From Rariglobus sp. (GTDB lineage Bacteria; Verrucomicrobiota; Verrucomicrobiia; Opitutales; Opitutaceae): a stretch of DNA of 52,549 nucleotides. Position numbers and translations under genes: made by a program. The stretch lies in the NCBI GenBank assembly GCA_029266495.1, contig JAQSWS010000041.1, positions 1 through 52,549 of the forward strand. The letters are read 5' to 3'. Position 1 is the stretch's first letter, and each line of letters begins with the position of its first letter. Below the pieces are notes generated by a model. It worked only from the letters and a program-made list of their open reading frames with translations. It was not told the DNA's origin and searched no databases. This document shows positions 23,631-43,182 of this stretch, in pieces.

Positions 23631-24111
23631 CAACCTCGTCGGGTTGCCTTAGAAAAGGGCGCCTCCCAACAGCCGGGAGGTGGAGCCCCGAACCCCCGCG
23701 CTCATGGCTCGATGAAGCGGGAGCATTCACCGTCTTGAATATCAGGACGGTTAAATAAAAACCACAGACGGTGAAGGAGGCGGGGCGCGGCTGCTGGACG
23801 CGCCGGTTCGGCGCAAGCATGCCTTTGGATATTCGCGGTGGTCCCAGCGGTCCCGCCCTAGCTCGCAACGAGCACGTCGTTTGACTGTCAATGACAGGCG
23901 GACTTGTTCCGCTGTCGGTCCACCGAGTAAGTGACCTGCATGAGCGAGTGGCCGAAGCATGAAGACCCCGGCAGGGGACGCGCTGGGGGCCGCCGTGAAC
24001 ATCCCTTTCGGGATTGGATCCCCGTCGATGAAGCGCCGGCGATCCATTCTGAGTCACCCTGCCCGGACCAAATGGCGCCGGGCGTTTTCCAACCCCAAAC
24101 CCCAACCCCAC
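23631..24111 (+). other. 481-bp gene-free leader between the floA operon and the GH26-like gene
   Basis: It starts with a small hairpin after the operon (CCTCCC 23662-23667 / GGGAGG 23675-23680). Next come two mutually exclusive stems sharing one arm: ACCGTC (23729-23734) can pair with GACGGT (23746-23751), or TTCACCGTC (23726-23734) with GACGGTGAA (23767-23775). The perfect operator TTGACTGTCAA is at 23881-23891. An in-frame upstream start at 23959 exists for the next gene, but the signal peptide begins at 24112. Confidence 0.6.
23881..23891. promoter_or_regulatory. Operator-like palindrome TTGACTGTCAA, site 1
   Basis: It is a perfect 11-bp palindrome 221 bp before the GH26-like start. It shares the core with sites at 28175, 35227, 42007 and 42110, all next to polysaccharide-use genes or the LacI gene. 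Binding by the LacI-type protein is inferred. Confidence 0.6.
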
Positions 24112-25659
24112 ATGTTAAGAAAACTAACCACGCTCACGCGATCCGGCGGGCTTTTGCTGGCCTTGCTGTGTTCCTCCCTCACGACGCAGGCACTTCCTCA
24201 ATTGGGCGTCTATCGCTGGGCCGCGCCCAGTGGCCCCGGCAATGTTAACACCTACAGCCAATGGCTCAACCAGCCCGACATGTGGGCGGAGGATTTCGAG
24301 GCCTCCGATAGCTGGAGCAATATCGCGGGGCCCAGTTGGATCTTGAATCCGTGGTCCACCTGGGTGGCGGCCAGACCCGGACGAACGCTGATCCTCAGCG
24401 TTCCGATGCTGCCCAGTTCGCCGTCAGACGTGTCCCTGGCCACGGGAGCCACGGGTGCGTATAACTCCTATTATCAAACCTTGGCGACCAACCTGGTGGC
24501 CAAAAATCTGGGGAATACGATCATTCGCCTGGGTTGGGAGTTCAATGGCGGCTGGTATAAGTGGGCGGCCAAGGGCAAGACGGCCGACTTCATCGCGTAT
24601 TGGCGGCAGATCGTCACCACGATGCGCGCGGTGCCGGGAGCGGCGAACCTCAAGTTCTGCTTCAATCCGGTGTATGGTTATCAGCAGTTTCTCGCCGACC
24701 AAGCGTATCCGGGCGACCCCTACGTGGATTATGTCGCGCTGGATGTTTACGACGAATCCTGGATTGCGAACACCTATCCCTGGCCGGCCGGCACCAGCGC
24801 GGCGGAAATCGAGTCGCGGCGCGCGACGGTATGGAATGACCTGCTCAACGGCGTTCGCGGTTTGAACTACTGGAAGAACTTCGCGGCCAGCCATGGAAAG
24901 CCCTTCGCGATCGGCGAATGGGGCGTGAACAATCGCAGTGACGGTCATGGCGGCCTGGATAACGCCCAATTCATAACCAACATGTATGACTTCATGACGA
25001 ACAACCCGGTGGCGTGGGCGGTGTATTTCGACGTGCAGGCCGGCGATGGCCATCACCAGCTTTCACCGACCACCAGCGGCACGAATTTCCCGCTGGCCCG
25101 CGCGCGCTTCCTCGAGCTGTTCAGCGGGGTGAAACTTCAGGATGAGTTCACGAGCGGCAGCACCGCGAACTGGACGCCAAATCTGCCCGCGCAATGGCTG
25201 ATCGTGAGCGATGCCGGAGACAACGCCTACAAATGGGATTTCAACTGGACCAACCAAGGCGGGCTCAGCACCGCGGGCAGCAGCACCTGGACCGACTACA
25301 CCGTGTCTGCGGAAATGAAGATCACGGATCTGCAAAGCTGGAGTGAAACCCACCTGTATGCGCGCTACACCGACTCCAGTAATTACTACCGGCTGATGGT
25401 GCAGGACCAGGGCGGGACGCGGAAGCTGGTGCTGCAGAAAAGAGCGGCCGGCACACTCACCGCGCTCGGCTCGGCAAGCGCCGCCATCAATGCCAACACC
25501 TGGTATCACCTGGCGCTGGACGTGGCGGGCGGCACCCTGACGGTTTATCTGAACGGAACCCAGGTGTTGCAACGAACGGACGCTTCTCTGGCCGCCGGAA
25601 AGGTCGGGCTCGGGGCCTGGAAGCAGGACGTGCAGTTCGACAGTGTATTGGTGCAGTAA
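24112..25659 (+). CDS. Secreted GH26-like glycoside hydrolase with a C-terminal LamG-like domain
   Basis: This 515-residue protein is predicted from the ATG at 24112 with a signal peptide (MLRKLTTLTRSGGLLLALLCSS). Residues about 28-370 resemble GH26 (beta-mannanase clan GH-A): RLGWEFNGGWYKW supplies the acid/base Glu143 and FAIGEWGV the nucleophile Glu269, followed by YFDVQAGDGHHQL. Residues about 375-515 form a concanavalin-like beta-sandwich probably used for sugar binding. It is a paralogue of the larger protein at 32489 with the same catalytic blocks. A perfect operator-like site lies upstream and a terminator downstream. The substrate could be mannan or another plant or algal glycan; the subfamily is uncertain. 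Confidence 0.8.
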   Translation: MLRKLTTLTRSGGLLLALLCSSLTTQALPQLGVYRWAAPSGPGNVNTYSQWLNQPDMWAEDFEASDSWSNIAGPSWILNPWSTWVAARPGRTLILSVPMLPSSPSDVSLATGATGAYNSYYQTLATNLVAKNLGNTIIRLGWEFNGGWYKWAAKGKTADFIAYWRQIVTTMRAVPGAANLKFCFNPVYGYQQFLADQAYPGDPYVDYVALDVYDESWIANTYPWPAGTSAAEIESRRATVWNDLLNGVRGLNYWKNFAASHGKPFAIGEWGVNNRSDGHGGLDNAQFITNMYDFMTNNPVAWAVYFDVQAGDGHHQLSPTTSGTNFPLARARFLELFSGVKLQDEFTSGSTANWTPNLPAQWLIVSDAGDNAYKWDFNWTNQGGLSTAGSSTWTDYTVSAEMKITDLQSWSETHLYARYTDSSNYYRLMVQDQGGTRKLVLQKRAAGTLTALGSASAAINANTWYHLALDVAGGTLTVYLNGTQVLQRTDASLAAGKVGLGAWKQDVQFDSVLVQ

Positions 25660-25691
25660 GGATCGCAGTCGCTTCGAGACGACCAGCTATG

Positions 25692-25730
25692 GGCCTCCTC
25701 CGGTTCGTTCCGGAGGGGGCCTTTGTATTT
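25692..25730 (+). terminator. Intrinsic terminator after the GH26-like gene
   Basis: The stem GGCCTCCTCCGG (25692-25703) / CCGGAGGGGGCC (25710-25721) has one T-G wobble and a 6-nt loop. It is followed by TTTGTATTT, 33 bp after the stop codon. Confidence 0.75.
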
Positions 25731-25825
25731 GAAGATTAGATACAGATCACTGGTTTGAGCTTATGCCCGGGGCCCGATCACTGTGACTTTGCAGGGCTGC
25801 AATCCAGAAGCATTCAGCTGCCGGA

Positions 25826-27430
25826 TTAGGGCGCGTCCGTCCGGAAGGTGAAGGCGGGCAGGCCGTCGGCGTTGAACAGGTTCGCCCAGGCGAGAGGCCA
25901 GGTCCAGGCGTAGCGGGCCGCCACGGGACGGGAAACTTGCGGACTCGAAAGAACAACGGTTTTCCCGTCGATGCGGGCCTCCGCCCAGTGAAATTTCTTA
26001 TCCTCGCCGGCGATCAGGAACCCTTGGAGTGGCTGGCCGGCGGGAGTGGTCAGGCCCTTGCCCGTGTGAGTGAAGGTGATGCGGAGCGTGTTTCCTTCCG
26101 GTTTCGCCGACTCATACACCGGGCCGTAGTATTCCGCGGGTTTGCCATACACCGCGCCCATGGCGACCAGGCAACCGCGGGTGCCATAGCCTGATTTGTT
26201 GACCGGGTGAAGACCGCCGACCAGATCCGTCGTGGTCACCAGAAAGGTGTTGGGGTTTTGAGCGATGCGATAGCTCTCCTGATGTTTGCTCGAGAAATAA
26301 TCCTGTGCGGGCGGCTTTGATGGCAGAGGCTCGAACGGTTTCGCGCCGCGATTGACCGGGTTGTCGGGGTTCAGTGCGCAGCCGCCTCCGCTGGGTTTTT
26401 TAACATAGAGCCAGGGAAATTCTCCCTGTCCCCAGTTTTTTCGCCAGGCGCGAATCAGTCCGGACATCAACGAGATTTGATCGATTCCGCCCGTGCTGCC
26501 GCCTTCTCCCTGGTCCCAGAGCACACCACGGATTGCAAAGGGAATGATCGGGCGGACGAACTGATCGTAAAACTCTCCGGTGGTTTGTTGGCCGTAGGGT
26601 TTGGGCCTGGCGGGCGCTTTGGGCCATTGGCTTTCCGGTGTGCCCGCCGCCTTGGCGGCGGCGGTCTTCTCCTGCCATTGTTTCAGGGAGGCCTCGTAGT
26701 TTTTCATCCGCGACTCCAGTGGCTCCTTTGCGTTGCTGAGGGCGGCGGCTTGCTGGATGACGGGGTCCGATCTGAAGGACTCCGCGTCGATCCAAGGACC
26801 CGAGGGTGAACCCGCGACGGCCGCCTGGATCAGGCCCACGGGAACGCCGAGTTCCTCCTGCAGCTTTAGTCCGTAATAGAATAGTTGTGCGGAGAACGAG
26901 CGGGTTTTCTTGGGATCCCACTGGCTCCATTTCAAATGGGTCTTCCCGTTGCGGAAGACGCGCACATTGGGGTGAAGTTGGTCGGCGGCTTCCTTGAGGA
27001 TCGGGTCGTCCTTGTCATACATGGTGACAGGGCTGTCTATGTTGGATTGGCCGGAGCCCACCCAGACTTCGCCGACGACGACATCCTTGAGTGTGATGGT
27101 GTTTTTTCCGGTCACGATCAGCTCGCCGGGGTCGCCGGGTTGGAGCGGGTCGAGCTTGATCATCCATTTCCCGGAGGCATCGGCGGCGGTGCGTTTTGTC
27201 TGGCCGTGGAATGCTACGGAGACAGCTTCGCCGGGTTCGGCCGTGCCCCAGACGGGGACGGGCATGCCGCGTTGCAGCACCATGTGGCTGTCCAAAACGG
27301 GGGGAAGCTCCACCTTGGCAAACGCGTTCGACGTCGCGCAAAGCGCAAGGAGGGCAAGCCAGCCCGAGCGGAGCGCGAGCCTGCGAGGAAAAAAGGGACT
27401 GCGAGGCGAGGAGGGGCTCATGGCGGTCAT
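25826..27430 (-). CDS. Sialate O-acetylesterase-like SGNH hydrolase (secreted)
   Basis: This 534-residue protein has a signal peptide (SGWLALLALCATSNAFA) after an Arg/Ser-rich head; the ATG at 27421 is an alternative start. The SGNH-type block EVWVGSGQSNIDSPV (GQSN 127-130, catalytic Ser129) and VLWDQGEGG mark the sialate O-acetylesterase family, which removes acetyl groups from glycans. A jelly-roll-like first part (VLDSHMVLQRGMPVPVWGTAEPGE) is typical. Its start overlaps the stop of the upstream accessory gene by 4 bp, so they are coupled. In this context it probably de-acetylates a plant or algal polysaccharide rather than sialic acid. Confidence 0.87.
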   Translation of the reverse strand: MTAMSPSSPRSPFFPRRLALRSGWLALLALCATSNAFAKVELPPVLDSHMVLQRGMPVPVWGTAEPGEAVSVAFHGQTKRTAADASGKWMIKLDPLQPGDPGELIVTGKNTITLKDVVVGEVWVGSGQSNIDSPVTMYDKDDPILKEAADQLHPNVRVFRNGKTHLKWSQWDPKKTRSFSAQLFYYGLKLQEELGVPVGLIQAAVAGSPSGPWIDAESFRSDPVIQQAAALSNAKEPLESRMKNYEASLKQWQEKTAAAKAAGTPESQWPKAPARPKPYGQQTTGEFYDQFVRPIIPFAIRGVLWDQGEGGSTGGIDQISLMSGLIRAWRKNWGQGEFPWLYVKKPSGGGCALNPDNPVNRGAKPFEPLPSKPPAQDYFSSKHQESYRIAQNPNTFLVTTTDLVGGLHPVNKSGYGTRGCLVAMGAVYGKPAEYYGPVYESAKPEGNTLRITFTHTGKGLTTPAGQPLQGFLIAGEDKKFHWAEARIDGKTVVLSSPQVSRPVAARYAWTWPLAWANLFNADGLPAFTFRTDAP

Positions 27431-28101
27431 GTCACGGGGACGGCGGGGGAGGGAGCCGGGGTGGGTGCCGCCGGGAGGCTGCCGTCGATCTTGATGGAAT
27501 AATCGATCTCGGGAACGTGCTTCTTCCCGGGGAAGTAGAGGATGTGTCCCAACGAGAAGAAGGCTTTACCATACACGCGATTATCACCGAGCATGGTGAA
27601 GGTTTTCCGCTGATTGATGTAGGTGAGGGTGAAGCCCGCCGCGCCTTGTTGGAAAACAAAGCTGGAAGGGCTGATGGTTTTGAGCCTGACCTCGCCCTTG
27701 CTCGCCGGGAACGGCTTGGCGGGCTGCCCGTCGAAGGACCAGCGGGCGCCTTGCTCAATGACGCTGAGCGAGAAGGGGAGGCTGAAGGCAAACTTGACGC
27801 GATCGGGGGGGATTTCAGTGAAATGAAAGGACCAGCTGCCGTCGGCCTGCTTGCTGATGACCAGCTTTCCGGAGGGGGAATACGTCATGGTGGCTCCGCT
27901 GCCGTCTTCCTTGATCGTAATGTTTTCCGGCTTCAGCCCGCCGTCGTTCGGGTTCAGGAGCGCGGGATACTTCATGACATAGACACCGGCGGCGTTGGCA
28001 TCAATGGCGAAGCCGGTCGGCGTCAGCTTCACGTCGCCGGCGTGCATGCAATGCAGGGGGCAGGCGAGGGCGAAAAGAACAGCGAGCAGGGGGTGTTTCA
28101 T
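27427..28101 (-). CDS. Secreted stand-alone module related to the N terminus of the GH50-like enzyme
   Basis: This 224-residue protein has a signal peptide (MKHPLLAVLFALACPLHCMHA). No catalytic domain is recognised. The sequence follows the pattern of the 205-residue protein at 39132 and of residues 20-200 of the GH50-like protein at 35349: a short KLTPTGF-type opening, GSGATMTYSPSGKLVI, FSLPFSLSVIEQGARWSFDGQPAKPFPASKGEV, GAAGFTLTY and GDNRVYGKAFF. It ends in a Pro/Ala tail. An operator-like site lies 74 bp upstream, and the sialate esterase gene overlaps its end. It is probably a glycan-binding or enzyme-support protein; function unproven. Confidence 0.75.
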   Translation of the reverse strand: MKHPLLAVLFALACPLHCMHAGDVKLTPTGFAIDANAAGVYVMKYPALLNPNDGGLKPENITIKEDGSGATMTYSPSGKLVISKQADGSWSFHFTEIPPDRVKFAFSLPFSLSVIEQGARWSFDGQPAKPFPASKGEVRLKTISPSSFVFQQGAAGFTLTYINQRKTFTMLGDNRVYGKAFFSLGHILYFPGKKHVPEIDYSIKIDGSLPAAPTPAPSPAVPVT

Positions 28102-28174
28102 GAGGTAGTTGAATGAGGTGACATGATTTACATACCCTCTCGCGGTTCCTGGCTTCCGGCCAGTCTGTCTCCGT

Positions 28175-28185
28175 TGGACAGTCAA
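28175..28185. promoter_or_regulatory. Operator-like palindrome TGGACAGTCAA, site 2
   Basis: It lies 74 bp upstream of the accessory-module gene at 28101 and differs from the perfect palindrome by one base. Flanks (TTGGACAGTCAATG) match the site at 35227. Confidence 0.55.
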
Positions 28186-28265: not shown

Positions 28266-29099
28266 TCAGGGCTGCAGTTTCGCGGCCCGCCGGCGATACT
28301 CGCTCGGCGACACACCGTAATCCTCTTTGAATACATGGCTCAGGTGGAATGCGTCGGAAAACCCCGTGGCCTCCGCCACGACTGCCAGCTTCATCTCCGT
28401 CGAAACCAGCAGCCGGGCCGCCGCCTCGAGCCGCGCCGCGCGGACGTAGTTCATCGGCGTCACCCCGAACTCCTCCTTGAAAACCGCGTGGAACCGCGCC
28501 GGGGACAAACCCGCCCGCTCCGCCAACCCGTCCACCGAAAGCGGCTCGGCCAGCCGATCGCGGATATGCGCCAGCACCGGCACGAGCTGTTCTCTTCGCG
28601 GGCCGACGACCGCTGTCCGCCCCCGGCACAACAGCGCCGCGATCCTCGCCGCCACCGCATGCTGGCCCAGCAGCCGGCCGGCGTCGTCGTCCCGCAGCCT
28701 GTTCAACGCCAGTGCCTCGCCGATCAGCCGCCCGGCCTCCTCCCCGTCGCTTTTCTCCAGCAACAACGACGCGTCGTAACGCGCCAAAAAATCCTCCATG
28801 CCCCACCGGCTCCAGTGCAAGTGGACCCAGCGCGCCTCCATCAGCCCGCCGGCCCCGTCGTGATGCCCGAACTCCACCGGCGTATGCGCGGGCACATACA
28901 ACACGCGCCCCTCCGTCACCGTCTCGCGCCGCCCGTTCCTCCGCACCGCATAGCTGCCCGCCACCGGCTGTGCCACGATCGCATACGGCACCGTCTTGCG
29001 ATGCACCCATCCGTCCACCCGCCGGCGAAAACTCCCCGTCTCGAAAAACTCGAGCTGAAGCGCATGGCCTGAGGAGAGGCGGGTTGGAGTTTCAGACAT
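28266..29099 (-). CDS. AraC-family transcriptional regulator
   Basis: This 277-residue protein is predicted from the ATG at 29099. The N-terminal half is a cupin-like sensor domain (YVPAHTPVEFGHHDGAGGLMEARWVHLHW). The C-terminal hundred residues hold two helix-turn-helix motifs of AraC type (LSVDGLAERAGLSPARFHAVFKEEFGVTPMNYV and LAVVAEATGFSDAFHLSHVFKEDYGVSPSEYRR). It is divergent from the sugar isomerase gene and probably controls that pair in response to a sugar. It sits in a C-rich stretch of the plus strand unlike its surroundings. Confidence 0.92.
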   Translation of the reverse strand: MSETPTRLSSGHALQLEFFETGSFRRRVDGWVHRKTVPYAIVAQPVAGSYAVRRNGRRETVTEGRVLYVPAHTPVEFGHHDGAGGLMEARWVHLHWSRWGMEDFLARYDASLLLEKSDGEEAGRLIGEALALNRLRDDDAGRLLGQHAVAARIAALLCRGRTAVVGPRREQLVPVLAHIRDRLAEPLSVDGLAERAGLSPARFHAVFKEEFGVTPMNYVRAARLEAAARLLVSTEMKLAVVAEATGFSDAFHLSHVFKEDYGVSPSEYRRRAAKLQP

Positions 29100-29187
29100 G
29101 CTTTTTTGACCCCTGATCATGGGAAAATGAGACGTTATCCGATATTTTCAGACACACACCTCGGTTCAACACAATCCCCTCGTTCCC

Positions 29188-30027: not shown

Positions 30028-30040
30028 CTCCCGCCCCTCC

Positions 30041-32481: not shown

Positions 32482-32488
32482 GATCGGA

Positions 32489-35095
32489 TTATTGGACCAG
32501 CAGGTGCGGACGGTTGTCTTCAGTGGTGTGTTCGCGGGAGGCGAAGGACACGTTGGTGACGCTGCCGCTGACATCGCCGGTGATGCGGAGGGAGAGCAGG
32601 CCGTCACCGGCGGCCTCGGCGAGAACCTGGCTGGTGATGTCGATGCTGACCGGAACGCCGACTTTGAGCGCGGGAAGGAGCAACTGTCCGAGCACCACGC
32701 CGGAACCGGCGGGTTTGTTGCCCCAGGTTATCCCGGTTTCGGACCAGGAGTCGTCGGAAACGAACTCGACGGTATAGGTGGCGGTCGTGCTGGTGCTGGT
32801 CCCGACAGGGGTGAGCTGGAGCTGGACCAGGCTGGCGGCGGTCAGGCCACTCACGTCGAAGCGCAGGTAGCCGGTCCGATTGTAGCTGGTGGCGTCCTTC
32901 TTGACGGTGAAGGAGGTTTCAGTTCCGTAGTTTATTAACGAATACGTTCCGTCGCGCACGTAGGAATCGGCCCCGGCCGTCAGGGAGACGGCGGTCGGGC
33001 GCGGGACGAACAGGACGGCGTCGGCGATGACGGACGCCGTGGTGCCCGTGGTTTCGACCAGCACGTTGCCGGACGAACCGGCGTCGAAGGCATACGAGCC
33101 GAGATGATTCCAGAGGTAACGGGCGCTTTGCTGGTTGGCCAGGAACGAGGCGGTGCTTTCCGTGGAGGCGACGGACACCGGGGTGTTTGAGGAAACGGAA
33201 TACTTGGCGGGCCAGCGAATGTAGACATCGTAATCGTTGGCCTGGGCGAGGGACGGGGAGTAGCGGACGGACTTGGTTCCCTTGGCCGTGTTGCCGTCCT
33301 GGATGTAGTTGGCGCCTTCGAACGGTGTGGTCGCAGTCGAGGTGGTCCAGGCGCCGGTGAGGGTGATGCCGGAGGGGGCGTCGTTGTCGAGAACGAGAGA
33401 CTCGGCAATGGAAGCGGTATCGTTGGTTTGGATATCCCGGTGGTCGACCTCGGAGACGGTGGTGGTGGCGAGGGCGGTGGTGGAGCCGCTGCCCACGGCG
33501 ATGCCCAGCTGGGCGGTCCCGGTCATGACCACCGTGCAGTCGCCGACGAGGGTCCAGTTCAGGCCGTCGTTGGAGAGATAGCCGGTGACCCGGTCGGTCT
33601 TGCGGGTGAGCTTGAGCCAGACCGGAGCGGTGACTGCGTTGACCGTCGCATTCAGCAGTGTCCTGGCGCCGGCGGTGGCGCGGCTCTGGAGCACGCATTT
33701 GCCGTTGGCGACGAAGAGCGCGACATAGGCGGCGTTGGCGGTGGTGTCCTGGCGCAGCATGGCGCCGGACTGGGCGGTTGCGGAGCCGGGCAACGCGGAG
33801 ATCTCGAGGATCAGCTCATCGTCGCCGGTGATGCCGCGAGAGCTGAAGTTGAAGCCGTCGACGGTGGCGGCCGGGTGGAAACCCGCGCCGGCGCCGGTGA
33901 AGGTCTCGACCGTGAAGCCGCCGGCCAGGCCGACCGCGCCGACGTCGGTGTTGAGGGGAAACGGCTTCACCGCGAACATTTGCCGGAACATGGCGGCGGC
34001 TTGCGGAAACTCCGTTGGGCCGCCGTTGGGCAGCTGAGTGAGCTGATGATGACCATCGCCGGCCTGCACGTCGAAATAGCTGTGATAATGGACGTTGTTG
34101 TCGGGTTCATGGATATACTCATACATCTTCTGGATGAAGACGGGGTTGTCCTTGCCGCCGGAGGTGTTGACGCTCACCCCCCACTCGGGGATGGTGAACG
34201 GCTTGCCGCGGCTGGCCGCGAAATTCCGCCAGGCGCCCATGTTGTTGTTCAACGTGCCGGAGATGTAGCCCCAGGCGGTGTTGCGCCGCGTCAGGAGCTG
34301 CGCGGGCGTCAGGCCGTCGGGATACGGAGCCTCGTAGGTGTTGGCGGCGGAGCACTTGTCGTAAACGTCGACGCCGATATAGTCTACGTATGCGTCGCCC
34401 GGATACGCATCGGCGATCGGATAAGAAGTCCATACGCGGGCGATGCCGCACCACTCGAACTTGAGGTTTTCGGCGCCGGGGACCGCGCGCATCGCGGTGA
34501 CGACCTTCCGCCAGTAGGCGGCGTAGCTCGCGGCGTCGGTGGCGTTGCGCACCTTCCAGGGATACCAGTCGCCGTTGAACTCGTGACCGAGGCGCACGAT
34601 GGTGTTGTTGGCGAGCCCGCGGGAGACGAGTTTTCCGGCCAGCGTGACGAAGTGTGAATCGTAGAGGCCCGCCGCGCCATTGGCCAGCGAGGTGCCCGAG
34701 GCGGGAGTGGACTGATACCCGGGCAACAGGCAGACGGTGTAGCAGTAGGTTCCGCCCGGATGACTGGCGAGCCAGGCCTTGGCCGCGTCGAGTTGGGTGG
34801 TGGTTCCCTCGATGTAGGACCAACTGGCGTAGCCGCCCATATCGAAGGCGAACAGTTTGCTGCGGTAGAGCCAGGCGGCGGTGGCGTCGTTGTGCGATAT
34901 GCCGGTGTCGGCCAGTCCCCAGCCGTAGATGCCCATGAAGGGGGCGGAGACGTTGTCGGTGGGCGGGACGGGGGTCGCTTGAAGCGTCGCGCCTAACGCG
35001 AGGGCGGCGAGGAGGAGTTTTCCGAGAGATGACGGGTGGCGGATGGCGCAACCGTGATCAGGGGAAACGGAAGCAACGGGGATGGGATTTTTCAT
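32489..35095 (-). CDS. Secreted multidomain GH26-like glycoside hydrolase with CBM96/DNRLRE-type end
   Basis: This 868-residue protein is predicted from the ATG at 35095. A signal-like segment is at about 25-40 (LLLAALALGATLQA). Residues about 50-380 form the GH26-like barrel: RLGHEFNGDWYPW (Glu172 acid/base) and FTIPEWGV (Glu304 nucleophile), then YFDVQAGDGHHQL. Three modules follow: a DUF1349-like sandwich (about 390-550), a golvesin-type domain (about 560-690), and a final DNRLRE/CBM96-like domain (ADSYVRDGTYSLINYGTETSFTVK to the end). An operator-like site lies 132 bp upstream. It is a paralogue of the gene at 24112. The glycan is unknown; CBM96 relatives bind alginate-like polymers. Confidence 0.82.
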   Translation of the reverse strand: MKNPIPVASVSPDHGCAIRHPSSLGKLLLAALALGATLQATPVPPTDNVSAPFMGIYGWGLADTGISHNDATAAWLYRSKLFAFDMGGYASWSYIEGTTTQLDAAKAWLASHPGGTYCYTVCLLPGYQSTPASGTSLANGAAGLYDSHFVTLAGKLVSRGLANNTIVRLGHEFNGDWYPWKVRNATDAASYAAYWRKVVTAMRAVPGAENLKFEWCGIARVWTSYPIADAYPGDAYVDYIGVDVYDKCSAANTYEAPYPDGLTPAQLLTRRNTAWGYISGTLNNNMGAWRNFAASRGKPFTIPEWGVSVNTSGGKDNPVFIQKMYEYIHEPDNNVHYHSYFDVQAGDGHHQLTQLPNGGPTEFPQAAAMFRQMFAVKPFPLNTDVGAVGLAGGFTVETFTGAGAGFHPAATVDGFNFSSRGITGDDELILEISALPGSATAQSGAMLRQDTTANAAYVALFVANGKCVLQSRATAGARTLLNATVNAVTAPVWLKLTRKTDRVTGYLSNDGLNWTLVGDCTVVMTGTAQLGIAVGSGSTTALATTTVSEVDHRDIQTNDTASIAESLVLDNDAPSGITLTGAWTTSTATTPFEGANYIQDGNTAKGTKSVRYSPSLAQANDYDVYIRWPAKYSVSSNTPVSVASTESTASFLANQQSARYLWNHLGSYAFDAGSSGNVLVETTGTTASVIADAVLFVPRPTAVSLTAGADSYVRDGTYSLINYGTETSFTVKKDATSYNRTGYLRFDVSGLTAASLVQLQLTPVGTSTSTTATYTVEFVSDDSWSETGITWGNKPAGSGVVLGQLLLPALKVGVPVSIDITSQVLAEAAGDGLLSLRITGDVSGSVTNVSFASREHTTEDNRPHLLVQ

Positions 35096-35226
35096 GGTAA
35101 CCAAGCATGGCCTTGGGCCGTCTGGGGTGGACTGACGTGGGGTAAAAAACAGGAATGCCCCAAGGCATGTCCTGTGAGTGTGGATACAAATCCCGAGGTC
35201 CGGCGCGCAGGCGAGGGTGCGCATGT

Positions 35227-35237
35227 TGGACAGTCAA
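35227..35237. promoter_or_regulatory. Operator-like palindrome TGGACAGTCAA, site 3
   Basis: It lies 132 bp upstream of the large GH26-like gene. Context TTGGACAGTCAAATG has one mismatch to the perfect palindrome. Confidence 0.55.
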
Positions 35238-35348: not shown

Positions 35349-38162
35349 TCAGTTTTCGACGAGCCGGGCGCGTCCCCAGGCGCCGCGGTCGCCGGAGTTT
35401 TTGCCGGTGCCGCTCCACACGAGTTGCTGGAGGCGGGCATCACCGTCGTCGCTGTTGTCGATCGCGACATCAAAGAGCATTTCCAGTCCGGTCTTGGGCT
35501 CGAAACCGAGGACGGTCCACGGCAGGCGCACCTGCACCGTGTAGCCGTCGCCGGACACGTCTTTCACCACCACCACGGAGCAGTCCTTGCCGGCCTCGGG
35601 ATGGTCGACGATGAACACGCCCGGCGCCTCGCCGGTGCCGATAAGGATCTGCCGATCGCTGAACTGGAGGGTGCCGCCCTCGTTAAGGTTCTTGGCGCCG
35701 ATGAACAGTTCGATGCCGTCGCCGGACCAGTAGGACTTCGGGCTCTTGTTGTTTTTGCCCGGCGTGGGATCCTTGACCTGGATGAGGAAGTGCAGGGCCT
35801 TGTCGTCCCAGCACAGGCGGAAGTCTCCGCCGAGTTTCGGGTTGGGATTGCCGATCATGACGCGGTTGGCGCCGATGGGTTCGGCGGGACGACCGGGCCA
35901 GTCGGTGGTGGAGCCGTTGAGCTGGAGGCCGGGCAGCGAAGGCGGGATGGAGACGATCTTGGCGGGACCGGCGCCTTTGCCGGTGAAACGCGCGTCGTCG
36001 TAGGCGAAGGCCGTTTCCTTGCCGAGGATGACGTCGTAAATGCGGGCATGGGTGACGCGGGCGGCGTCGACGAGCGGCTGGTAGGGGCGGTCGGCGACAT
36101 CGACGATGCCGGTGTTGTTGCCCTCGCCGTTGAAGCCGCTGAAGAAGCGGCCGGTGATGGACTGGTCGGTGTAAACGAACCACTGGGAGCCGACGACGTA
36201 GCCGGTGGCGGCGGACTGCTCGATGTAGTTGCGGTAGCCGAGGCCGCGCTCGACCTGATCCTTCACTTCCTTGCCGCCGCCGAGGCCGCGCTCGGTGGAG
36301 CTATAATACCATTCGCTGAAGAGCATGGGTTTGCCGCCGCTCCAGTCATAGACCTTCTTGAGGAAGTCCTTTTCGATGCCGTAGGTGTAGTAGTTGATGC
36401 TGACGACATCGAGATACTTGCCCCCGATGCGGACGACGTCCTCGTTGTTCGCGGTGTGCGGGGTCCAGCGGCTGCCGATGAGGAGGTGGTTCTGGTCGTA
36501 TTTTTTGAACGTGCGACGGATCAGGCTGTAATAGGTTTCCAAATACAGCTGGTAGAAGGCGCGCATGTCGGCCGAGGCGGCGTCGGTCTTGATGAAGAGC
36601 GGTTCCTCGTTGAGGTCATCGAAGCTTGCGAAGGGCTTCACGGGTGCCCAGGCGGCGTTGAACTTTGCAATGTCGCCGTATTTGGCGGCGAGGATCCCGA
36701 CGAGCTTCGCCTTGGCGGGGACCTTGCTGGCCTTGTAGGAGGGGATGAGCTTGGGGAGCAGCTCGAAGTGCTGCTCGTTGCCGAGGAAGTAGCCGATGAG
36801 AAGCGGATCATCGGCGCGTTTGGCGATGGAGCCGGAGAAGGCCTTGTCGAGGGCCTCCTCGATGCCGGGGCCGAACGGGTCGATCAGATCGGCGGCGCCG
36901 ACCTTGTCGGGGAGGTAGGAGACGCCCTGTTCCTTGCCGGAGGGGAGGAAGGAGACGGAGGGGAAGTTGAGGGTGCGGAAGGTGGGGACATGGCCTCCGA
37001 AGGCGCCGGCACTGTTGAAGCCCCAGGCGCGGAGACGGTCGACGGTCTGCCCGGTCCATTCCTCGAAGGAGTAGGGTTTGCCGTATTTGCGGATCCAGTT
37101 GGCGATCTGGAAGGAGAAGATGCCCCAGTCGGGGCGGCCGTTGCGCCAAGCGGTCTTCCACTGCTCGTCCTTGGCAGGCGGCAGCCACTCGTAAATTTTT
37201 TCGCGTCCCTTCACGAGGGTGAAGTCGTCGGTGTTGGCGATGCCGCAGACGCCGAGCTGGAAGAAGGCGTTGCCCTCGGGGGTGACGAGCACGTGGCGGT
37301 CCTTGCCGATCAGGGCGGTGTGGAAGAACCCGGTGGCCTTGAGGCCGAGTTTTTGACCGCTGCCGGCGAGGCCGCCGAACTTGTCGAGCGCGGGACCCTG
37401 ATAGGCGCCAAGGGCGGCCTGCTGGACGGCGATGTCGGCTTTCAGTTCGTCCTCGGATTTGACTTTGCCGGGGTAGTCCTTGCGGGCGGACTGGCCGAAG
37501 CGATCCACGAGGAACCTGGGGGCGGCGGGTGCACCGGCGGCGGCGGGAGTGGCGGCGAGGGATGAAATCCTGAAGGAGAAGCTGGTTTTTCCGGCGTAAC
37601 GTTTCAGATCATAGCGATAGACCCAGGCGAAGACGTTCCAGCCCCACGTGCGGTTGTCCTGGAGTTGTTGAAACGCGGCGGGGACGGTGAAGCGGACGCC
37701 CTCGCCAAGCGGGTGGATCACGTCGAAGGTGGTGGAATCGCCTTGAGCAAGGAACTGACCGGCCTTGGCGGCGGGGAATTCGCCGGACTTGGCGCCGAGA
37801 GCGAAGCGTCCGCCCTGGCTGAGGTTGATGGGGAAAAAGGTGACGAATTTGAGGGAGGCGCCGTTTTTTGGCGGGGTGTCGAAACTGTAGGTGACGGATT
37901 TATCGGCGTTGGAGACGGCGATCTTGAGGACGAAGCCGTTGGAGTAGGTGGCCTGGGCGCCGCCGCCCTCGGGGTTGAGGGCGTAGGTGGGTTTGAGTTC
38001 CTTCTTGTCGGTGGTGTCGATGGAGGGGGCGGGCAGGCTGAAGCTGCCAAGGGTGCCGGCGTTCAGGACCGCTCCTTTTTCGGAGAGGGAGAGTTTGAGG
38101 CCTTGCGCAGAGAGCGGCAGGAAGGAGCAGAGGCCGAGGAGGAGAGGGAGGAGACGTTTCAT
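35349..38162 (-). CDS. Secreted GH50-like glycoside hydrolase with N-terminal accessory module and CBM9-like domain
   Basis: This 937-residue protein is predicted from the ATG at 38162, with a signal peptide (MKRLLPLLLGLCSFLPLSAQ). Residues 20-200 are the module also found alone at 27427 and 39132. The catalytic part (about 275-740) resembles GH50 beta-agarase-type barrels: LVTPEGNAFFQLGVCGI, REKIYEWLPP, DRLRAWGFNSAG, GYFLGNEQHFE (Glu463 acid/base) and PMLFSEWYYSSTERG (Glu617 nucleophile). Residues about 760-937 look like a CBM9-type sugar-binding domain (RLCWDDKALHFLIQVKD). It is the last gene of a four-gene operon starting at 41857. Whether it cuts agar or another galactose polymer is open. 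Confidence 0.82.
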   Translation of the reverse strand: MKRLLPLLLGLCSFLPLSAQGLKLSLSEKGAVLNAGTLGSFSLPAPSIDTTDKKELKPTYALNPEGGGAQATYSNGFVLKIAVSNADKSVTYSFDTPPKNGASLKFVTFFPINLSQGGRFALGAKSGEFPAAKAGQFLAQGDSTTFDVIHPLGEGVRFTVPAAFQQLQDNRTWGWNVFAWVYRYDLKRYAGKTSFSFRISSLAATPAAAGAPAAPRFLVDRFGQSARKDYPGKVKSEDELKADIAVQQAALGAYQGPALDKFGGLAGSGQKLGLKATGFFHTALIGKDRHVLVTPEGNAFFQLGVCGIANTDDFTLVKGREKIYEWLPPAKDEQWKTAWRNGRPDWGIFSFQIANWIRKYGKPYSFEEWTGQTVDRLRAWGFNSAGAFGGHVPTFRTLNFPSVSFLPSGKEQGVSYLPDKVGAADLIDPFGPGIEEALDKAFSGSIAKRADDPLLIGYFLGNEQHFELLPKLIPSYKASKVPAKAKLVGILAAKYGDIAKFNAAWAPVKPFASFDDLNEEPLFIKTDAASADMRAFYQLYLETYYSLIRRTFKKYDQNHLLIGSRWTPHTANNEDVVRIGGKYLDVVSINYYTYGIEKDFLKKVYDWSGGKPMLFSEWYYSSTERGLGGGKEVKDQVERGLGYRNYIEQSAATGYVVGSQWFVYTDQSITGRFFSGFNGEGNNTGIVDVADRPYQPLVDAARVTHARIYDVILGKETAFAYDDARFTGKGAGPAKIVSIPPSLPGLQLNGSTTDWPGRPAEPIGANRVMIGNPNPKLGGDFRLCWDDKALHFLIQVKDPTPGKNNKSPKSYWSGDGIELFIGAKNLNEGGTLQFSDRQILIGTGEAPGVFIVDHPEAGKDCSVVVVKDVSGDGYTVQVRLPWTVLGFEPKTGLEMLFDVAIDNSDDGDARLQQLVWSGTGKNSGDRGAWGRARLVEN

Positions 38163-38220: not shown

Positions 38221-39063
38221 TCAGCGGGCGATGAAGTCGAGGACGGCGGTGCCGGCGGGGTCGCCGTTTTCGAGGAAGCGGGAAAGAATGGTTCCGTGAT
38301 TGCGATCCTTGACGATGACGAAAGGCACGGGAGGGTTTTTGGCGACGCGGTGGAGGGCGGCGGCGAGGAACTGGTTTTCCTCGAGGCGGGCGGGCCAGTC
38401 CTTGTCCCCGATGAGGAGGAGGATGCGCGGCGCACCGGCCCGCACATGGGCGAGCGGGGCGGCGTCGTTTACAATCACGGTGTCCTTGGGGAGGCTGGTC
38501 TCGCCGCGAACGGTGAAGTGGGTGGTCATCTGACCGCTCATGCAGATGAAGCCGGCCGCCGTGCCGGCGACTCCGGCGTCATGAAGATAACGGGCGTCGA
38601 GGGCGAGCATGGCGGATACGTATCCACCGGCAGAATACCCTCCGATGTAAATTTTTTTGGGATCGGCGCCGAATCCGGAGGCATGGCTGGCGGTCCAGCG
38701 AACGGCCGCGGCGGCATCTTCGAGGTAGACGGGGAATTTGACCTGGGGGGAAAGGCGGTAGTTGGCGGCGACCACGGCGATGCCGCGTCCGGCGAGGCGG
38801 CGGGCGGCCGCCTGCTCGGGCCCGGCGGCCTTGTCGCCGCCGGAGAGGCCGCCGCCATGGAACCAGACAAGGATAGGGAAGTTCGCGGCGGGTGCGGCGG
38901 GCAGGTAGACGTCGAGCTTGCAGCGTTGTGCGGCGTAGTTGTCAGCGTTGGTGATTTCCCGATAGGGGATATCCAGGCGCTCGGTAATCGGGCCCGGCTC
39001 GGCAAGGGCCTGCGAGATGAAGGCAAGAACGAGACCGAGGATTGGGCTGATCAGGCGGGGCAT
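38221..39063 (-). CDS. Secreted alpha/beta-hydrolase esterase
   Basis: This 280-residue protein is predicted from the ATG at 39063 with a signal peptide (MPRLISPILGLVLAFISQALA). Motifs of carboxylesterases are visible: oxyanion HGGG (69-72), nucleophile elbow GYSAGG (Ser144), Asp near LIGDKDWPA (220-222) and His256 in DRNHGT. The DVYLP-NFPILVWFHGGG arrangement is typical of family-IV-like or BD-FAE-type esterases that remove acetyl or feruloyl groups from polysaccharides. It is the third gene of the operon between a stand-alone module and the GH50-like enzyme. A 13-bp hairpin sits 14 bp before its start. Confidence 0.88.
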   Translation of the reverse strand: MPRLISPILGLVLAFISQALAEPGPITERLDIPYREITNADNYAAQRCKLDVYLPAAPAANFPILVWFHGGGLSGGDKAAGPEQAAARRLAGRGIAVVAANYRLSPQVKFPVYLEDAAAAVRWTASHASGFGADPKKIYIGGYSAGGYVSAMLALDARYLHDAGVAGTAAGFICMSGQMTTHFTVRGETSLPKDTVIVNDAAPLAHVRAGAPRILLLIGDKDWPARLEENQFLAAALHRVAKNPPVPFVIVKDRNHGTILSRFLENGDPAGTAVLDFIAR

Positions 39064-39076
39064 GTGAGGAGAAGGA

Positions 39077-39105
39077 AAGGGAATGCGATGAGATCGCATT
39101 CCCTT
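39077..39105 (-). other. 13-bp perfect hairpin before the esterase gene
   Basis: Arms AAGGGAATGCGAT (39077-39089) and ATCGCATTCCCTT (39093-39105) flank GAG. It lies 14 bp from the start codon in the intercistronic region. No T-run follows on the transcribed side. It may be a processing or stability element. Confidence 0.6.
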
Positions 39106-39131: not shown

Positions 39132-39749
39132 TTATTTTTTCTTCACCGGGGCGACGTCGATCGTGAAGCTTGTTTCGCTGGGGTAGCGGAGAAAGTCGTA
39201 GTGGTAGATCCAGCTGAAGTTCTGGGTGCCCCAGATGCGGCTGTCCTGCAGCTGCTGGTAGGAGGCGGGCATGGTGAACGAGAGGCCGTCACCGGTGCCG
39301 GTGATGAGATCAAGCCGGGTGAAGGCGCCCTGGGCAAAGAGCTGTTTGCCGGGTTCGCCGGGGAAGGGTTTGGCCTCGCCACCGTTGGTGGCGTAGCCGC
39401 CGCCTTCGTTGTAAGAAACGGGAAGGGTGGCGTTCACGATGATGGATGCGGCGTCGGCGGGAGCGCGGTCGAAGCGGTAGGTGATCGCGCCGGTTTCGGC
39501 GGAAAGGACGATGTTGATCACGAAACCGTCGGTGAACGTGGCGACGGCGGAGGTGCCGTCGGCGGACGGCGCGAACACCGGTTTGCGACTCTTCTTGTCG
39601 GAACCGGTGATGGTCGGGACACCGAGCACGATGCGACCGGAGGGCCCCCCATCAACGACCACGCCTTTGGCATCGGCGGAGAGTTTGATGGATTGCGCGG
39701 ACAAGGGCGCGACGCAGGCGAGGGCGAGAAAAACGAGCAGGGTTTTCAT
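39132..39749 (-). CDS. Secreted stand-alone module, second copy
   Basis: This 205-residue protein has a signal peptide (MKTLLVFLALACVAPLSAQ). It aligns by eye along its full length with residues 1-200 of the GH50-like protein: SIKLSADAKGVVVDGG, TSAVATFTDGFVINIVLS, TYRFDRAPADAAS, GGYATNGGEAKPFPGEPGKQ, SYQQLQDSRIWGTQNFSWIYHYDFLRYPSETSFTIDV. The equivalent end in the GH50-like protein is FQQLQDNRTWGWNVFAWVYRYDLKRYAGKTSFSF. No catalytic residues are evident. It is second in the operon, after the PEP-CTERM protein. It may help bind substrate or assist the enzyme; unproven. Confidence 0.8.
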   Translation of the reverse strand: MKTLLVFLALACVAPLSAQSIKLSADAKGVVVDGGPSGRIVLGVPTITGSDKKSRKPVFAPSADGTSAVATFTDGFVINIVLSAETGAITYRFDRAPADAASIIVNATLPVSYNEGGGYATNGGEAKPFPGEPGKQLFAQGAFTRLDLITGTGDGLSFTMPASYQQLQDSRIWGTQNFSWIYHYDFLRYPSETSFTIDVAPVKKK

Positions 39750-39762
39750 GGGGTATGGAGAA

Positions 39763-39788: not shown

Positions 39789-39820
39789 CTGCAACCGGCC
39801 AGAGCGGCGGTGGTTGACGG

Positions 39821-41857
39821 TTAACGTGAGCGGAGGCCGGCACGGCGGCGCCAGATGGCGCCGGCGAGCAGGAATGCGCCGGCGAAAGCGGCGTAGGTGG
39901 AGGGCTCCGGAATGGTGGAAATGTTGCCAAAGACGAGGGTGTTGCCGACGAGGGCGAACTCGCCAGAGCCGCCGTTGATGGCGGAGAAATCGCCGGCGAC
40001 GAAGTCCGTGGAACCGAAGGTGACGAGCGTGTAGGTGATCGACGTGTTCAGCGTGGAGCCGGTGAAGTCGAAGATGAATGTGGATCCGGTGCCCTTGGTG
40101 AAACCGCTGGCGAGGACGAGCTGGTCGGACGAGACCTGGTCGGCACCGAGATTGAAGAACAGGCCCGCCGCGGAGTCATTGGAATTCCATGTGAGCGAGG
40201 AGCCGCCGGTGAACGTGCCGACCGTGGAGACGCCCGCACCATCCATGTCGCCGGGGGACAGGCGGGCGCCCGCGGCGAGGGTGATGGCTCCCGAGGCCGA
40301 GCCCGCGCCGCCGAGCGTGGCGCCGCTGCTGACGGAGACGGCGCCCGTGCCGGTGCCGCTGCCCGAGGTGTTGTTCACGATCAAGGCGCCGGTGGTGACG
40401 GCGGTGCCGCCGTCGTAGGTGTTGCCCGCGGCGTTGGTCAGGGCGATGACGCCGCCACCGGTATTGGTGGATCCGAAGGTGTAGTTGCCGATGGTGACGG
40501 CCTGGGAGCCTGCGGCGTCATCAATCAATCCGCTGAATTTCGTAATGCCTCCGGATTTGGCGGCCAGGATTACTCCGCGATTCAGGGTCACGGTGTTGCT
40601 GTAGGTGGTCGTGCCGCTGGAGTTGGTGCCGCCGATGACGGTGGTGCCGGAGCTGTTGTTGCTGGTTACATTGATCGCCCGATCGACGGTGAACGCGCCG
40701 TTGGTGAGGAGTTGGATCCGTTGGAGCGCGGCACCGAGGCTGGCGGAACCGGTGTCGCCCAGCTCGATGGCCGAGGTGGCGTTGCCGAGTGCGCCGTTTG
40801 TCCCGCTGGGAGCATCGGCGCCGATGAGCAGGGTGCCTTGGCGGACAATCGTGTCGCCGCTGTAGCTATTGGCCGCATTGGAAAGCGTCAGGCTGCCGGT
40901 GCCGGTCTTGATGATACCGCCATTGGAAACAACGCCTGAAATGCTCACGGGCGTTTGGGTCGAAAGATCGCGGCCGGTGGAGTCGATGAGCAGCGCGCGA
41001 TTGGCCCCGCTTAAATTAACCGTGCCCGTGAACGCGAGCGTGTTGCTTCCCTGAATGTTGAACGAATCGAGGAACTGAACATTGCCGCCAATGATCACGT
41101 TGTTGGTTACGGTGCGCGTGCTGCCGCTGGAGAAGCCGGCATAGGTAACAATGCCTCCGTTCAATGTCAGCGTGCCCGAAGATGCACCGAGGCCGGCGTT
41201 GCTTGCGAGGACCAGGCGACCGCTGTTCAGAGTGGTGCCGCCTGTATAGTTTCCGGTTCCGCCGAGGGTGACACGGCCGGCTCCAATGGTCAGGCCGCCC
41301 GAAAACGTCTGCGTGCCGGTGAACTCGAGCGTGCTGGTGCCACTTTTAAGAAGACCGCCGGATCCACTGAGGCTGCCGCTGAGGGTAAGCTTGTTTCCGC
41401 TGGTGTTTCCGTTGCCGTCCACGGTCAGACCGTTGGCAAAATTTACGGGGCTGCTGATCGCGTAATTGAGGAGGCCGGTTGCATTCAGGGTGATTTTGTT
41501 GGCGGTGCCCGTGAAATCCAAAGAGCTGCTCGTCTGGTTGATGGTGATCGTCCGGGCGGTCGTCGCGGCGGTGCCGGTCAGGATCAAGGTCTGCAGGTCA
41601 AACGAGCTTCCCAGATCGAGGGTGGCATTGAAGCTACTCGTGATGGTGGTTCCTGTGCCGGTGTAGAACTGGATGGTCGAATTGGCCGCCGCGACGGGAA
41701 TGCCATTTGCATCCCAGTTCCCCGAGGTGTTCCAGGTGCCGCCGGTCGTGCTGGTCCACGTGTAGGTGGTTTGGGCGGAGGCTGCGGAGGCCGCCAAGGC
41801 AAAAACCGCCGGGATGAGGCGGGTGAGACGTGAGGTCCTGACGAGGGGTGATTTCAT
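39821..41857 (-). CDS. PEP-CTERM surface protein with autotransporter-type beta-strand repeats
   Basis: This 678-residue protein has a signal peptide (LIPAVFALAASAASA), many Gly/Thr/Ser-rich beta-strand repeats (for example LTLSGSLSGSGGLLKSGTSTLEFTGTQTFSGGLTIGAGRVTLGG; LTLSNAANSYSGDTIVRQGTLL) and a PEP-CTERM sorting tail: IPEPSTYAAFAGAFLLAGAIWRRR. Such proteins are processed by exosortase and displayed or released at the surface. It is the first gene of the minus-strand operon that ends with the GH50-like enzyme, with a perfect operator-like site 150 bp upstream. The exosortase gene is not in the window. A role in holding polysaccharide or biofilm matrix is speculation. Confidence 0.9.
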   Translation of the reverse strand: MKSPLVRTSRLTRLIPAVFALAASAASAQTTYTWTSTTGGTWNTSGNWDANGIPVAAANSTIQFYTGTGTTITSSFNATLDLGSSFDLQTLILTGTAATTARTITINQTSSSLDFTGTANKITLNATGLLNYAISSPVNFANGLTVDGNGNTSGNKLTLSGSLSGSGGLLKSGTSTLEFTGTQTFSGGLTIGAGRVTLGGTGNYTGGTTLNSGRLVLASNAGLGASSGTLTLNGGIVTYAGFSSGSTRTVTNNVIIGGNVQFLDSFNIQGSNTLAFTGTVNLSGANRALLIDSTGRDLSTQTPVSISGVVSNGGIIKTGTGSLTLSNAANSYSGDTIVRQGTLLIGADAPSGTNGALGNATSAIELGDTGSASLGAALQRIQLLTNGAFTVDRAINVTSNNSSGTTVIGGTNSSGTTTYSNTVTLNRGVILAAKSGGITKFSGLIDDAAGSQAVTIGNYTFGSTNTGGGVIALTNAAGNTYDGGTAVTTGALIVNNTSGSGTGTGAVSVSSGATLGGAGSASGAITLAAGARLSPGDMDGAGVSTVGTFTGGSSLTWNSNDSAAGLFFNLGADQVSSDQLVLASGFTKGTGSTFIFDFTGSTLNTSITYTLVTFGSTDFVAGDFSAINGGSGEFALVGNTLVFGNISTIPEPSTYAAFAGAFLLAGAIWRRRAGLRSR

Positions 41858-42006
41858 AGCGGGATGGGAACTTTTATCGATGGCACTCGTGTGCTGGACG
41901 ATGGTTGGGATCTGTCGGGGTTGGCGTGGATGGCGCCTGGCGCACCACCTTGAAGAGTAATTCGGATTACCGTTTTTTTTATATGCCCGGACAAGGGGCC
42001 CGGCAC

Positions 42007-42017
42007 TTGACAGTCAA
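42007..42017. promoter_or_regulatory. Operator-like palindrome TTGACAGTCAA, site 4
   Basis: It is a perfect palindrome in the divergent region, 150 bp from the PEP-CTERM operon start and about 90 bp before the LacI gene. Confidence 0.62.
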
Positions 42018-42105
42018 ACGCAGTGCCCGCCAGCCATGGTAAAAAGGCGCGTGTTGTCGCAGTCGGGTTCACTTCTAGCCTTGCGGCGTTTCGGCGGCGG
42101 TCTCC

Positions 42106-43182
42106 ATGTCTGACAGTCAAATGGCCGATGCCCCCGTCCCCACCATTCGTCAGCTGGCCGCGCTTACCGGCGTATCGCGCACCACGGTCTCGCTGGCGTT
42201 GCGGAATCATCCCAGTCTGCCGGTCGACACCCGCACACGTATTCAGAAACTGGCCGCCGCGCACGGCTATAAGCAGGACCCGCTGGTCTCCTCCCTGATG
42301 GCGCACCTGCGCACCTCGCGCGCCAAACGCTCCGTGGAGCGCATCGCTTATTTCACCACTTGGGATACACGGGACGGCTGGAGAAAGCCGGGGAACGAAA
42401 ACAACTATTTCCTCGGGGCCTGCGAGCGCGCCGAAAAACTGGGTTACGAGATCGAGCATATCTGGGCCCGTGAGCCCGGCGTCACCACCGCACGGCTGAG
42501 CAAGATACTCTACACGCGCGCCATCCGGGGCATCATTCTCGCCCCGTTTGGAAATCCACGCAGCCACATCACGATGGACTGGAAGCATTTTGCGACTGCG
42601 GCGATCAGTCATACGCTGGTGCGTCCGCTCGTGCATCGCGCTTCGCATGGTCATTATAACGGGATGTTTCTCGCGCTGCGCCACCTGAGGCATCACGGCT
42701 ACCGGCGCATCGGTTTTGCGACGCGCCTGGAGCAGAGCGAGCGCGTGGGCAGCAGCTGGCTGGCGGCGCTGCTGGTGTATCAGCAGTCGATTTCCCCGGA
42801 TCAGCGCATCCCGCCGCTGCTTTCACCGGTGCCCACCAAGGCGGGGATGGACGCAGCTGCTTTCAAGCGGTGGTATCACGACCACACGCCGGATGTCGTG
42901 GTCAGTAATCTCAGCACCCCTCTTCACTTGCTTCAGGAGATGGGCCTGCACGTGCCGGAGGACGTCGGCTATGCCTCGCTGGATCTGATCAACAAGGATG
43001 ACCCGTGGTCGGGCATCGACCAGCAGGCGAGGGAGGTCGGAGCCTCCGCGGTGGACCTCGTGATGACGCAGCTTCAGAACAACGAGTTCGGCCTCCCGCG
43101 GTATCCAAAAACTGTTTACATGGATGGTCTCTGGCGCGAAGGGAACACCCTCTTGGCGCATCGCATCGCCGCGGCACGGTGA
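42106..43182 (+). CDS. LacI-family transcriptional regulator
   Basis: The protein has 358 residues from the ATG at 42106, or 353 from the ATG at 42121. The N terminus has the LacI helix-turn-helix (TIRQLAALTGVSRTTVSLALRNHPSLPVDTRTRIQKLAAAHGY), followed by a periplasmic-binding-type sugar sensor domain (IRGIILAPFG, FLALRHLRHHGYRRIGFA, DVGYASLDL). An operator-like palindrome (42110-42120) overlaps the first codons when 42106 is used; with the second ATG it lies directly upstream. It is divergent from the polysaccharide operon and is the best candidate to bind the five TTGACWGTCAA sites. The inducer is unknown. Confidence 0.92.
   Translation: MSDSQMADAPVPTIRQLAALTGVSRTTVSLALRNHPSLPVDTRTRIQKLAAAHGYKQDPLVSSLMAHLRTSRAKRSVERIAYFTTWDTRDGWRKPGNENNYFLGACERAEKLGYEIEHIWAREPGVTTARLSKILYTRAIRGIILAPFGNPRSHITMDWKHFATAAISHTLVRPLVHRASHGHYNGMFLALRHLRHHGYRRIGFATRLEQSERVGSSWLAALLVYQQSISPDQRIPPLLSPVPTKAGMDAAAFKRWYHDHTPDVVVSNLSTPLHLLQEMGLHVPEDVGYASLDLINKDDPWSGIDQQAREVGASAVDLVMTQLQNNEFGLPRYPKTVYMDGLWREGNTLLAHRIAAAR
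42110..42120. promoter_or_regulatory. Operator-like palindrome CTGACAGTCAA at the LacI start, site 5
   Basis: It is a one-mismatch copy directly at the start codon region of the LacI gene, immediately followed by a second ATG. This suggests autorepression and that translation may begin at 42121. Confidence 0.55.

Follow-up and report, generated by a model that had tools for sequence, protein, structure and literature searches.

The polysaccharide-related genes scattered over a 52,549-nucleotide stretch of DNA from Rariglobus sp. (Opitutaceae; assembly GCA_029266495.1, contig JAQSWS010000041.1, positions 1-52,549; this whole stretch is called the window) are probably switched on and off together, as judged from a sequence element that recurs in front of them. 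The element is bipartite and directional. Its consensus over 15 aligned sites is TTGACTGTC[A/C]A-N12-T[C/G/T]G, pointing at the controlled gene, and the directional second part, written T.G below, is its most unusual feature. The window sites are, in our judgement, rather likely to be operators of the LacI-family protein encoded at 42121-43182. The regulon marked by the element is real and conserved; it extends beyond the window and can be defined more closely than in the first-pass annotation of this DNA.

That annotation had placed five copies of a palindrome, TTGACWGTCAA, in the window, two of them perfect, and had seen none in the housekeeping parts. All five were recovered, with TTGACTGTCAA at 23881, TGGACAGTCAA at both 28175 and 35227, TTGACAGTCAA at 42007 and CTGACAGTCAA at 42110; the copies at 23881 and 42007 are indeed perfect palindromes of 11 base pairs (bp). 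Each site contains GACAGTCAA on one strand, and no sixth exact copy was present anywhere in the 52.5-kb window. The count of 5 compares with a shuffle mean of 0.19 and was reached in none of 100 shuffles. YKGACAGTCAA, a pattern fitted to the five window sites, was likewise found 5 times (shuffle mean 0.04), while TTGACWGTCAA with two mismatches was found 10 times against a mean of 4.62, and 3 of 100 shuffles were equally high. Because this loose form is only mildly enriched, the signal is carried by the strict form. With the second part included, the elements of the window are as follows.

23881..23906, plus strand: TTGACTGTCAA-N12-TTG, leading to the small GH26 gene; exact bipartite match, perfect palindrome
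28160..28185, minus strand: TTGACTGTCCA-N12-TGG, leading to the pair of an accessory module and a sialate-O-acetylesterase-type (SASA) gene; bipartite match
35212..35237, minus strand: TTGACTGTCCA-N12-TCG, leading to the large GH26 gene; bipartite match
41992..42017, minus strand: TTGACTGTCAA-N12-TTG, leading to the PEP-CTERM-to-GH50 operon; bipartite match, perfect palindrome
42095..42120, minus strand: TTGACTGTCAG-N12-CCG, leading to the PEP-CTERM operon; one mismatch (T to C, second part)

The bipartite match is exact at the first four sites. If lacI starts at the conserved MADAPVPTIRQL (ATG 42121), the 42110 site lies directly before the gene and outside it, and the element 42095..42120 abuts the probable ATG.

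The 15 aligned sites came from the source genome itself (G000; 4,892,833 bases, 172 contigs, 99.75% complete; 7 sites), from G117 of the same genus (5 sites) and from G135 of another genus (3 sites), and the set was fixed before T.G was noticed. Left out were the own copies on contigs C21 (inside an open reading frame, ORF), C10, C37 and C84, and the G117 copies on C185 (inside an ORF) and at C232:17035; the latter reads TTGACAGTCAG and has a counterpart in the own C37 within a 78% homologous stretch. Outside the 11-mer, only two columns within 65 bp stood out by strong conservation; read on the gene strand, these were T at position 24 (14/15) and G at position 26 (15/15), and the next best columns reached 10. 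When nearby positions were resampled 20,000 times, the top column got to 14 in 7 draws and to 15 in none, and no draw had two columns at 14; the lacI, prepilin and pseudopilin sites are partly orthologous, so that the 15 sites amount to about 10 independent cases. The second base of T.G was never A in the aligned sites, and T.G lay 17 bp after TTGACT with fixed spacing. Given the second part and the direction, the bare palindrome was rejected as the full motif. No support was found for T.G as a third LacI half-site or as the site of a second dimer.

The arrow is informative where both neighbouring genes run in the same direction. This was the case for six sites (own 23881, 28175, 35227 and C29, G117 C232 and the G135 prepilin site), and all six pointed to a gene start. 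The sites at 42007 and 42110, 103 bp apart, both pointed to the divergent PEP-CTERM-to-GH50 operon and away from lacI. The earlier annotation had assigned 42007 to this operon and 42110 to lacI. Since both arrows lead to the PEP-CTERM operon, lacI is a neighbour of the shared divergent region rather than a separate target. Its autoregulation stays plausible, because one site abuts its probable start codon.

In the complete set of own contigs, TTGACWGTCAA had 3 occurrences, of which the window accounts for 2 (0 in the reversed control), and YKGACAGTCAA had 8 (1 in the control), namely the five window sites, C165:13106, C29:33604 and C21:6707, the last inside an ORF. The C165 site lies between a SASA esterase gene and a pseudopilin-like gene, called from an N-terminal match to Verru_Chthon_A and GspK that is far below their cut-offs. 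The C29 site is upstream of two genes, the first for a prepilin (TIGR02532, above cut-off) and the next of the polysaccharide-deacetylase type. The shorter GACWGTCAA was found at 17 distinct places (controls 3 and 2), 5 of them in the window, which makes up 1.07% of the genome. Of the 11 copies outside both the window and C165, a simple ORF caller placed 7 inside called ORFs, and 4 (C10, C29, C37 and C84) were intergenic or ambiguous. Of the 7 own sites in the alignment, 6 had T.G, as against none of the 7 copies inside ORFs and 2 of the other 3 (C10 and C84; C37 had none). The genome-wide scan that had been proposed as a check did not turn up many sites in unrelated coding sequence. A single switch over dispersed genes had also been proposed: the units do share a rare gene-proximal element, also found at C165, C29 and in relatives, but this element is not the plain palindrome originally described.

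The SASA and GH26 genes that lie beside the C165 and G117 C16 sites, respectively, were considered as their targets and set aside, as the arrows favour the divergent pseudopilin-like gene; the divergent layout leaves both open. The copy at G000:C10:7156 reads GTGACTGTCAA-N12-TCG and lies 7 bp before the gene of a GntR-solute-binding-protein (SBP) fusion regulator, with GH1 and TIM-barrel genes adjoining. Its arrow points away from that regulator, as at lacI.

Orthologues of the window LacI at 69% identity or more were present in only two other genomes among those searched, G117 (88%) and G135 (69%), and a search of the genome contigs with LacI yielded nothing beyond these two. In G117, lacI, the PATR protein, the accessory gene and the GH50-like gene are kept in conserved order. 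YKGACAGTCAA occurred there 5 times (control 2): one copy precedes a small ORF and the gene of a solute-binding protein, two separate a divergent deacetylase gene from a prepilin-deacetylase operon, another separates a pseudopilin-like gene from a GH26 gene, and the last is in coding sequence. An additional TTGACAGTCAC, the equivalent of the window element at 42095..42120, likewise abuts the lacI ATG. In G135 the pattern occurred twice (control 0), before a GH50-like gene (64% identical) and the adjacent prepilin operon, and a site was also found near the start of a 50% LacI homologue. Local regulons of LacI-family proteins typically have an operator at the start of the regulator gene or before it, a sign of autoregulation; the window and G117 have a site there, with the arrow pointing away from lacI.

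The orthologue and the element occurred together. Among 28 genomes of the two genera, the 3 with the orthologue held 6, 4 and 3 exact bipartite sites, and of the other 25, 24 held none and G152 held 1. The orthologue and at least three exact elements were found together in 3 of the 28 genomes and apart in none, although the bipartite pattern was derived from these same three genomes, which has to be set beside the objections gathered below. When only the pattern known from the window, TTGACWGTCAA, was counted in the ten congeneric genomes of the family draw, the own genome had 3 copies, G117 and G135 had 1 each, and the other seven had none. The motif was found within one mismatch in 7 of 83 LacI upstream regions, or in 3 of 79 when 4 motif-fetched loci were removed, and the best of 58 other permuted half-sites reached 1. 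Exact odd 11-bp palindromes in LacI upstream regions numbered 34 against 20.8 in shuffles, and even 10-bp ones 20 against 18.0; this small sample, which includes motif-picked loci, gives a hint that LacI proteins of the family may favour odd operators. A quick LacI tree with long branches spread the site-bearing genes over several lineages, with at least 5 label changes, 2 of them forced by starred branches. In 150 family genomes the bipartite pattern gave 53 matches against 20 for the reversed control, 13 of the 53 being in the three source genomes.

Perfect palindromes in G056 (3/3) and G010 (2/2) all fell within a cluster of LacI and FGGY kinase genes, accompanied in one or the other by aldolase, epimerase, arabinofuranosidase or symporter genes, and the sites stood at the LacI start and before these genes. 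G127 had 11 perfect palindromes, 5 of them with T.G, with sites before sulfatase genes, and G089 had one site before a LacI gene. LacI-type proteins are thus the likeliest readers of the palindrome. The window LacI has a helix-turn-helix and a periplasmic-binding-protein-like sensor domain, both above the Pfam cut-offs, as expected of the LacI family. It had earlier been named as the simplest regulator of the switch, and proximity, footprinting and co-occurrence make it the best candidate.

Several observations weigh against this LacI as the reader. LacI operators are typically, if not universally, even, 16-22 nucleotides long and centred on CG, whereas the core here is an odd 11 bp with T/A at its centre. 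T.G is not explained by a LacI dimer, and it is present at C10 and C84, where the arrows lead to no called gene start. The arrows beside lacI itself point away from the gene. The 48%-identical LacI paralogues on the own C29 and on G117 C189 have no site at their starts, nor has L134 (G053), another LacI of the SRTTVSLAL type, and the second part in the arabinose clusters is mostly TTTAC and not T.G. The main rival is an alternative-sigma promoter (or a regulator encoded elsewhere) in which TTGACTGTC would be the -35 element, T.G the -10 element and LacI a mere neighbour. Direction and fixed 17-bp spacing would fit such a promoter, as would the sites on contigs that lack this LacI and the lacI region without a TATA-like -10 (0 promoter-like sites with a TATAAT-like -10 at 16-18 bp in 41800-42200). 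It accords poorly with the co-occurrence of LacI orthologue and element in two genera and with the palindrome at LacI starts and in the LacI-arabinose clusters of other genera, and a near-invariant 11-bp -35 would be unusual. We regard this rival as unlikely, though worth keeping in view: the position of T.G suggests a -10 element, but A never occurs as its second base, and the lacI region yielded no sigma-70-like promoter.

Control by the AraC-family protein at 28266-29120, which adjoins the site at 28175, is very improbable. AraC proteins usually bind direct repeats, tblastn found no homologue in the site-bearing loci of G117 and G135 (a search of these loci rather than of whole genomes), and neither the upstream region of the AraC gene nor the alginate-lyase genes held an exact or one-mismatch TTGACWGTCAA. 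TTGACW resembles the sigma-70 -35 consensus, and the motif was picked after the window was seen, so ordinary -35 boxes (TTGACA/T) running into GTCAA might have been noticed through close reading of one window. Such coincidence is hardly credible given 5 copies against shuffle means of 0.04 and 0.19, 8 sites genome-wide and a second conserved part that played no role in site choice; independent conservation at comparable genes in G117 and G135 already makes chance unlikely.

Under control by LacI, the imperfect palindrome TTGACTGTC[A/C]A would serve as the operator and replace the -35 box in a regulatory region that works in one direction, with T[C/G/T]G located where the -10 element would begin. 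LacI dimers would bind and hold the promoters off, repressing rather than activating, until a breakdown product of the target polysaccharide, presumably a sugar, bound the sensor domain and released them. The GH26 enzymes, esterases, GH50-like agarase and PEP-CTERM-type surface protein of the window would then be expressed jointly, together with the prepilin-deacetylase unit (C29) and the pseudopilin-like unit (C165) outside it. The paired sites 42007 and 42110 may be suited to looping and to cross-repression of lacI. A bolder version, doubtful when taken as a whole, has LacI and RNA polymerase recognizing a single composite element, in which an odd operator covers the -35 position and a non-TATA T[C/G/T]G box occupies that of the -10. 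Promoters built on this element would be one-way and form a class of their own in Opitutaceae, reserved for pseudopilins and secreted enzymes that degrade polysaccharides, and its operator part would recur with several LacI lineages at polysaccharide, sulfatase and arabinose genes.

The genes of the locus were assigned as follows.

23959..25659, plus strand: GH26 gene with a LamG-like domain (Pfam Glyco_hydro_26, Laminin_G_3)
25826..27430, minus strand: SASA gene (Pfam SASA 27.8 bits, cut-off 24.8)
27427..28101, minus strand: secreted-type protein of 224 amino acids, the accessory module named above; no match in Pfam or NCBIfam
28266-29120: AraC-family regulator (Pfam and solved-structure searches)
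29188-32424: TIM-barrel, dehydrogenase and alginate-lyase genes (Pfam and solved-structure searches)
32489..35095, minus strand: large GH26-Golvesin_C-CBM96 gene (Pfam; start predicted from sequence)
35349..38162, minus strand: GH50-like beta-agarase with CBM9 (PDB 4bq2, E 2.4e-50, residues 334-715; Pfam CBM9_1)
38221..39099, minus strand: BD-FAE-type esterase (Pfam)
39132..39755, minus strand: 207-amino-acid module akin to the N-terminal part of the GH50-like protein (by tblastn, about 40% identical to this part in G117)
39821..41857, minus strand: PATR-repeat protein ending in a PEP-CTERM-like stretch (Pfam PATR above cut-off; PEP-CTERM at 20.2 bits, slightly under the cut-off of 20.7)
42121..43182, plus strand: LacI-family regulator, candidate reader of the element (Pfam LacI 33.1 bits, Peripla_BP_3 41.9 bits)

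The small GH26 gene may start at 24112 instead (signal-peptide-like MLRKL...), and the large one probably starts at 35095 (signal-peptide-like MKNPIP...) and not at 35224. A weak copy of the element with 2 mismatches, TTAACCGTCAA-N12-TGG, lies at 39799-39824 before the 207-amino-acid gene inside the PEP-CTERM-to-GH50 operon. In G117 most of its palindrome is kept, and T.G is not.

Other palindromes were also noted in the family. The arabinose-type clusters (G056:C56:21665-30062, L110; G010:C147:27892-29779, L112) have GTTTAC as second part and are likely a separate LacI regulon. On G127 contigs C116, C123 and C132 (L106-L109, L119), several palindromes lie between divergent sulfatase-type genes. 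The 48% paralogues (L071, G117:C189; L072, G000:C29:64000-83479) adjoin further GH50-like genes that lack the element, and their loci therefore seem to use other operators; a related bipartite operator was sought in both and no candidate was found. The 11 palindromes of G033 were rejected as a regulon, since 10 of them form inverted pairs 24-32 bp apart and resemble hairpin repeats; these TTGACTGTCAA/TTGACAGTCAA pairs occur genome-wide (C13, C71 and C108; L103-L105) and are probably unrelated to the regulon. Possible operators of other LacI proteins are the palindrome-like TTTCCCGTAAA at -23 of the LacI genes L042 (G126) and L061 (G129) and the palindrome-like GTTTACTGTAAAC before the own C50 LacI (L160). 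The bipartite-pattern matches at L177, L183, L185, L193, L203, L204 and L205 read TTGACTGTCCT and may be sites of another regulator or chance; those at L204 and L205 precede related genes (...KVGFAQTG...).

A match to the window LacI at E 1e-20 or better was present in 137 of 150 family genomes, and no described operator for LacI-type proteins of Opitutaceae was found in the open-licence literature, judged from search listings. With a 26-bp element defined, conserved in two genera and paired with a candidate regulator, glycan regulation in this family becomes open to direct testing. Surface proteins and pseudopilins are predicted to be switched jointly with the GH26 and GH50 enzymes, which would bear on polysaccharide handling at the cell surface in these bacteria.

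The polysaccharide utilization loci of Bacteroidetes are clusters of glycan-degrading genes with a local regulator. The present locus shares this arrangement and differs in that a scan of the proteins encoded between 23959 and 43179 of the window found no SusC/SusD pair or hybrid two-component sensor. In the arabinose LacI clusters of G010 and G056, an identical perfect palindrome stands in front of sugar genes and at the start of LacI, but the LacI proteins there are only about 30% identical to the one described here, and the sites are at arabinose genes, with mostly TTTAC as second part. The closest parallel is with the local sugar regulons of LacI-family proteins of the Ravcheev type (PMC4052901, as far as its main text goes, in which the word Verrucomicrobia is absent). 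There, 72% of the LacI regulators are autoregulated, and most motifs have an even length and CG at the centre (1251 of 1303 even; 52 of 1303, or 4%, not). In both systems a LacI helix-turn-helix is combined with a sugar-binding sensor domain, and palindromic operators, putative in the present case, precede nearby carbohydrate genes and mark the regulator start. Unlike those regulons, the one described here has an odd 11-bp palindrome without a central CG, a fixed direction and the T.G part, and its predicted targets include pseudopilins and a PEP-CTERM-type protein.

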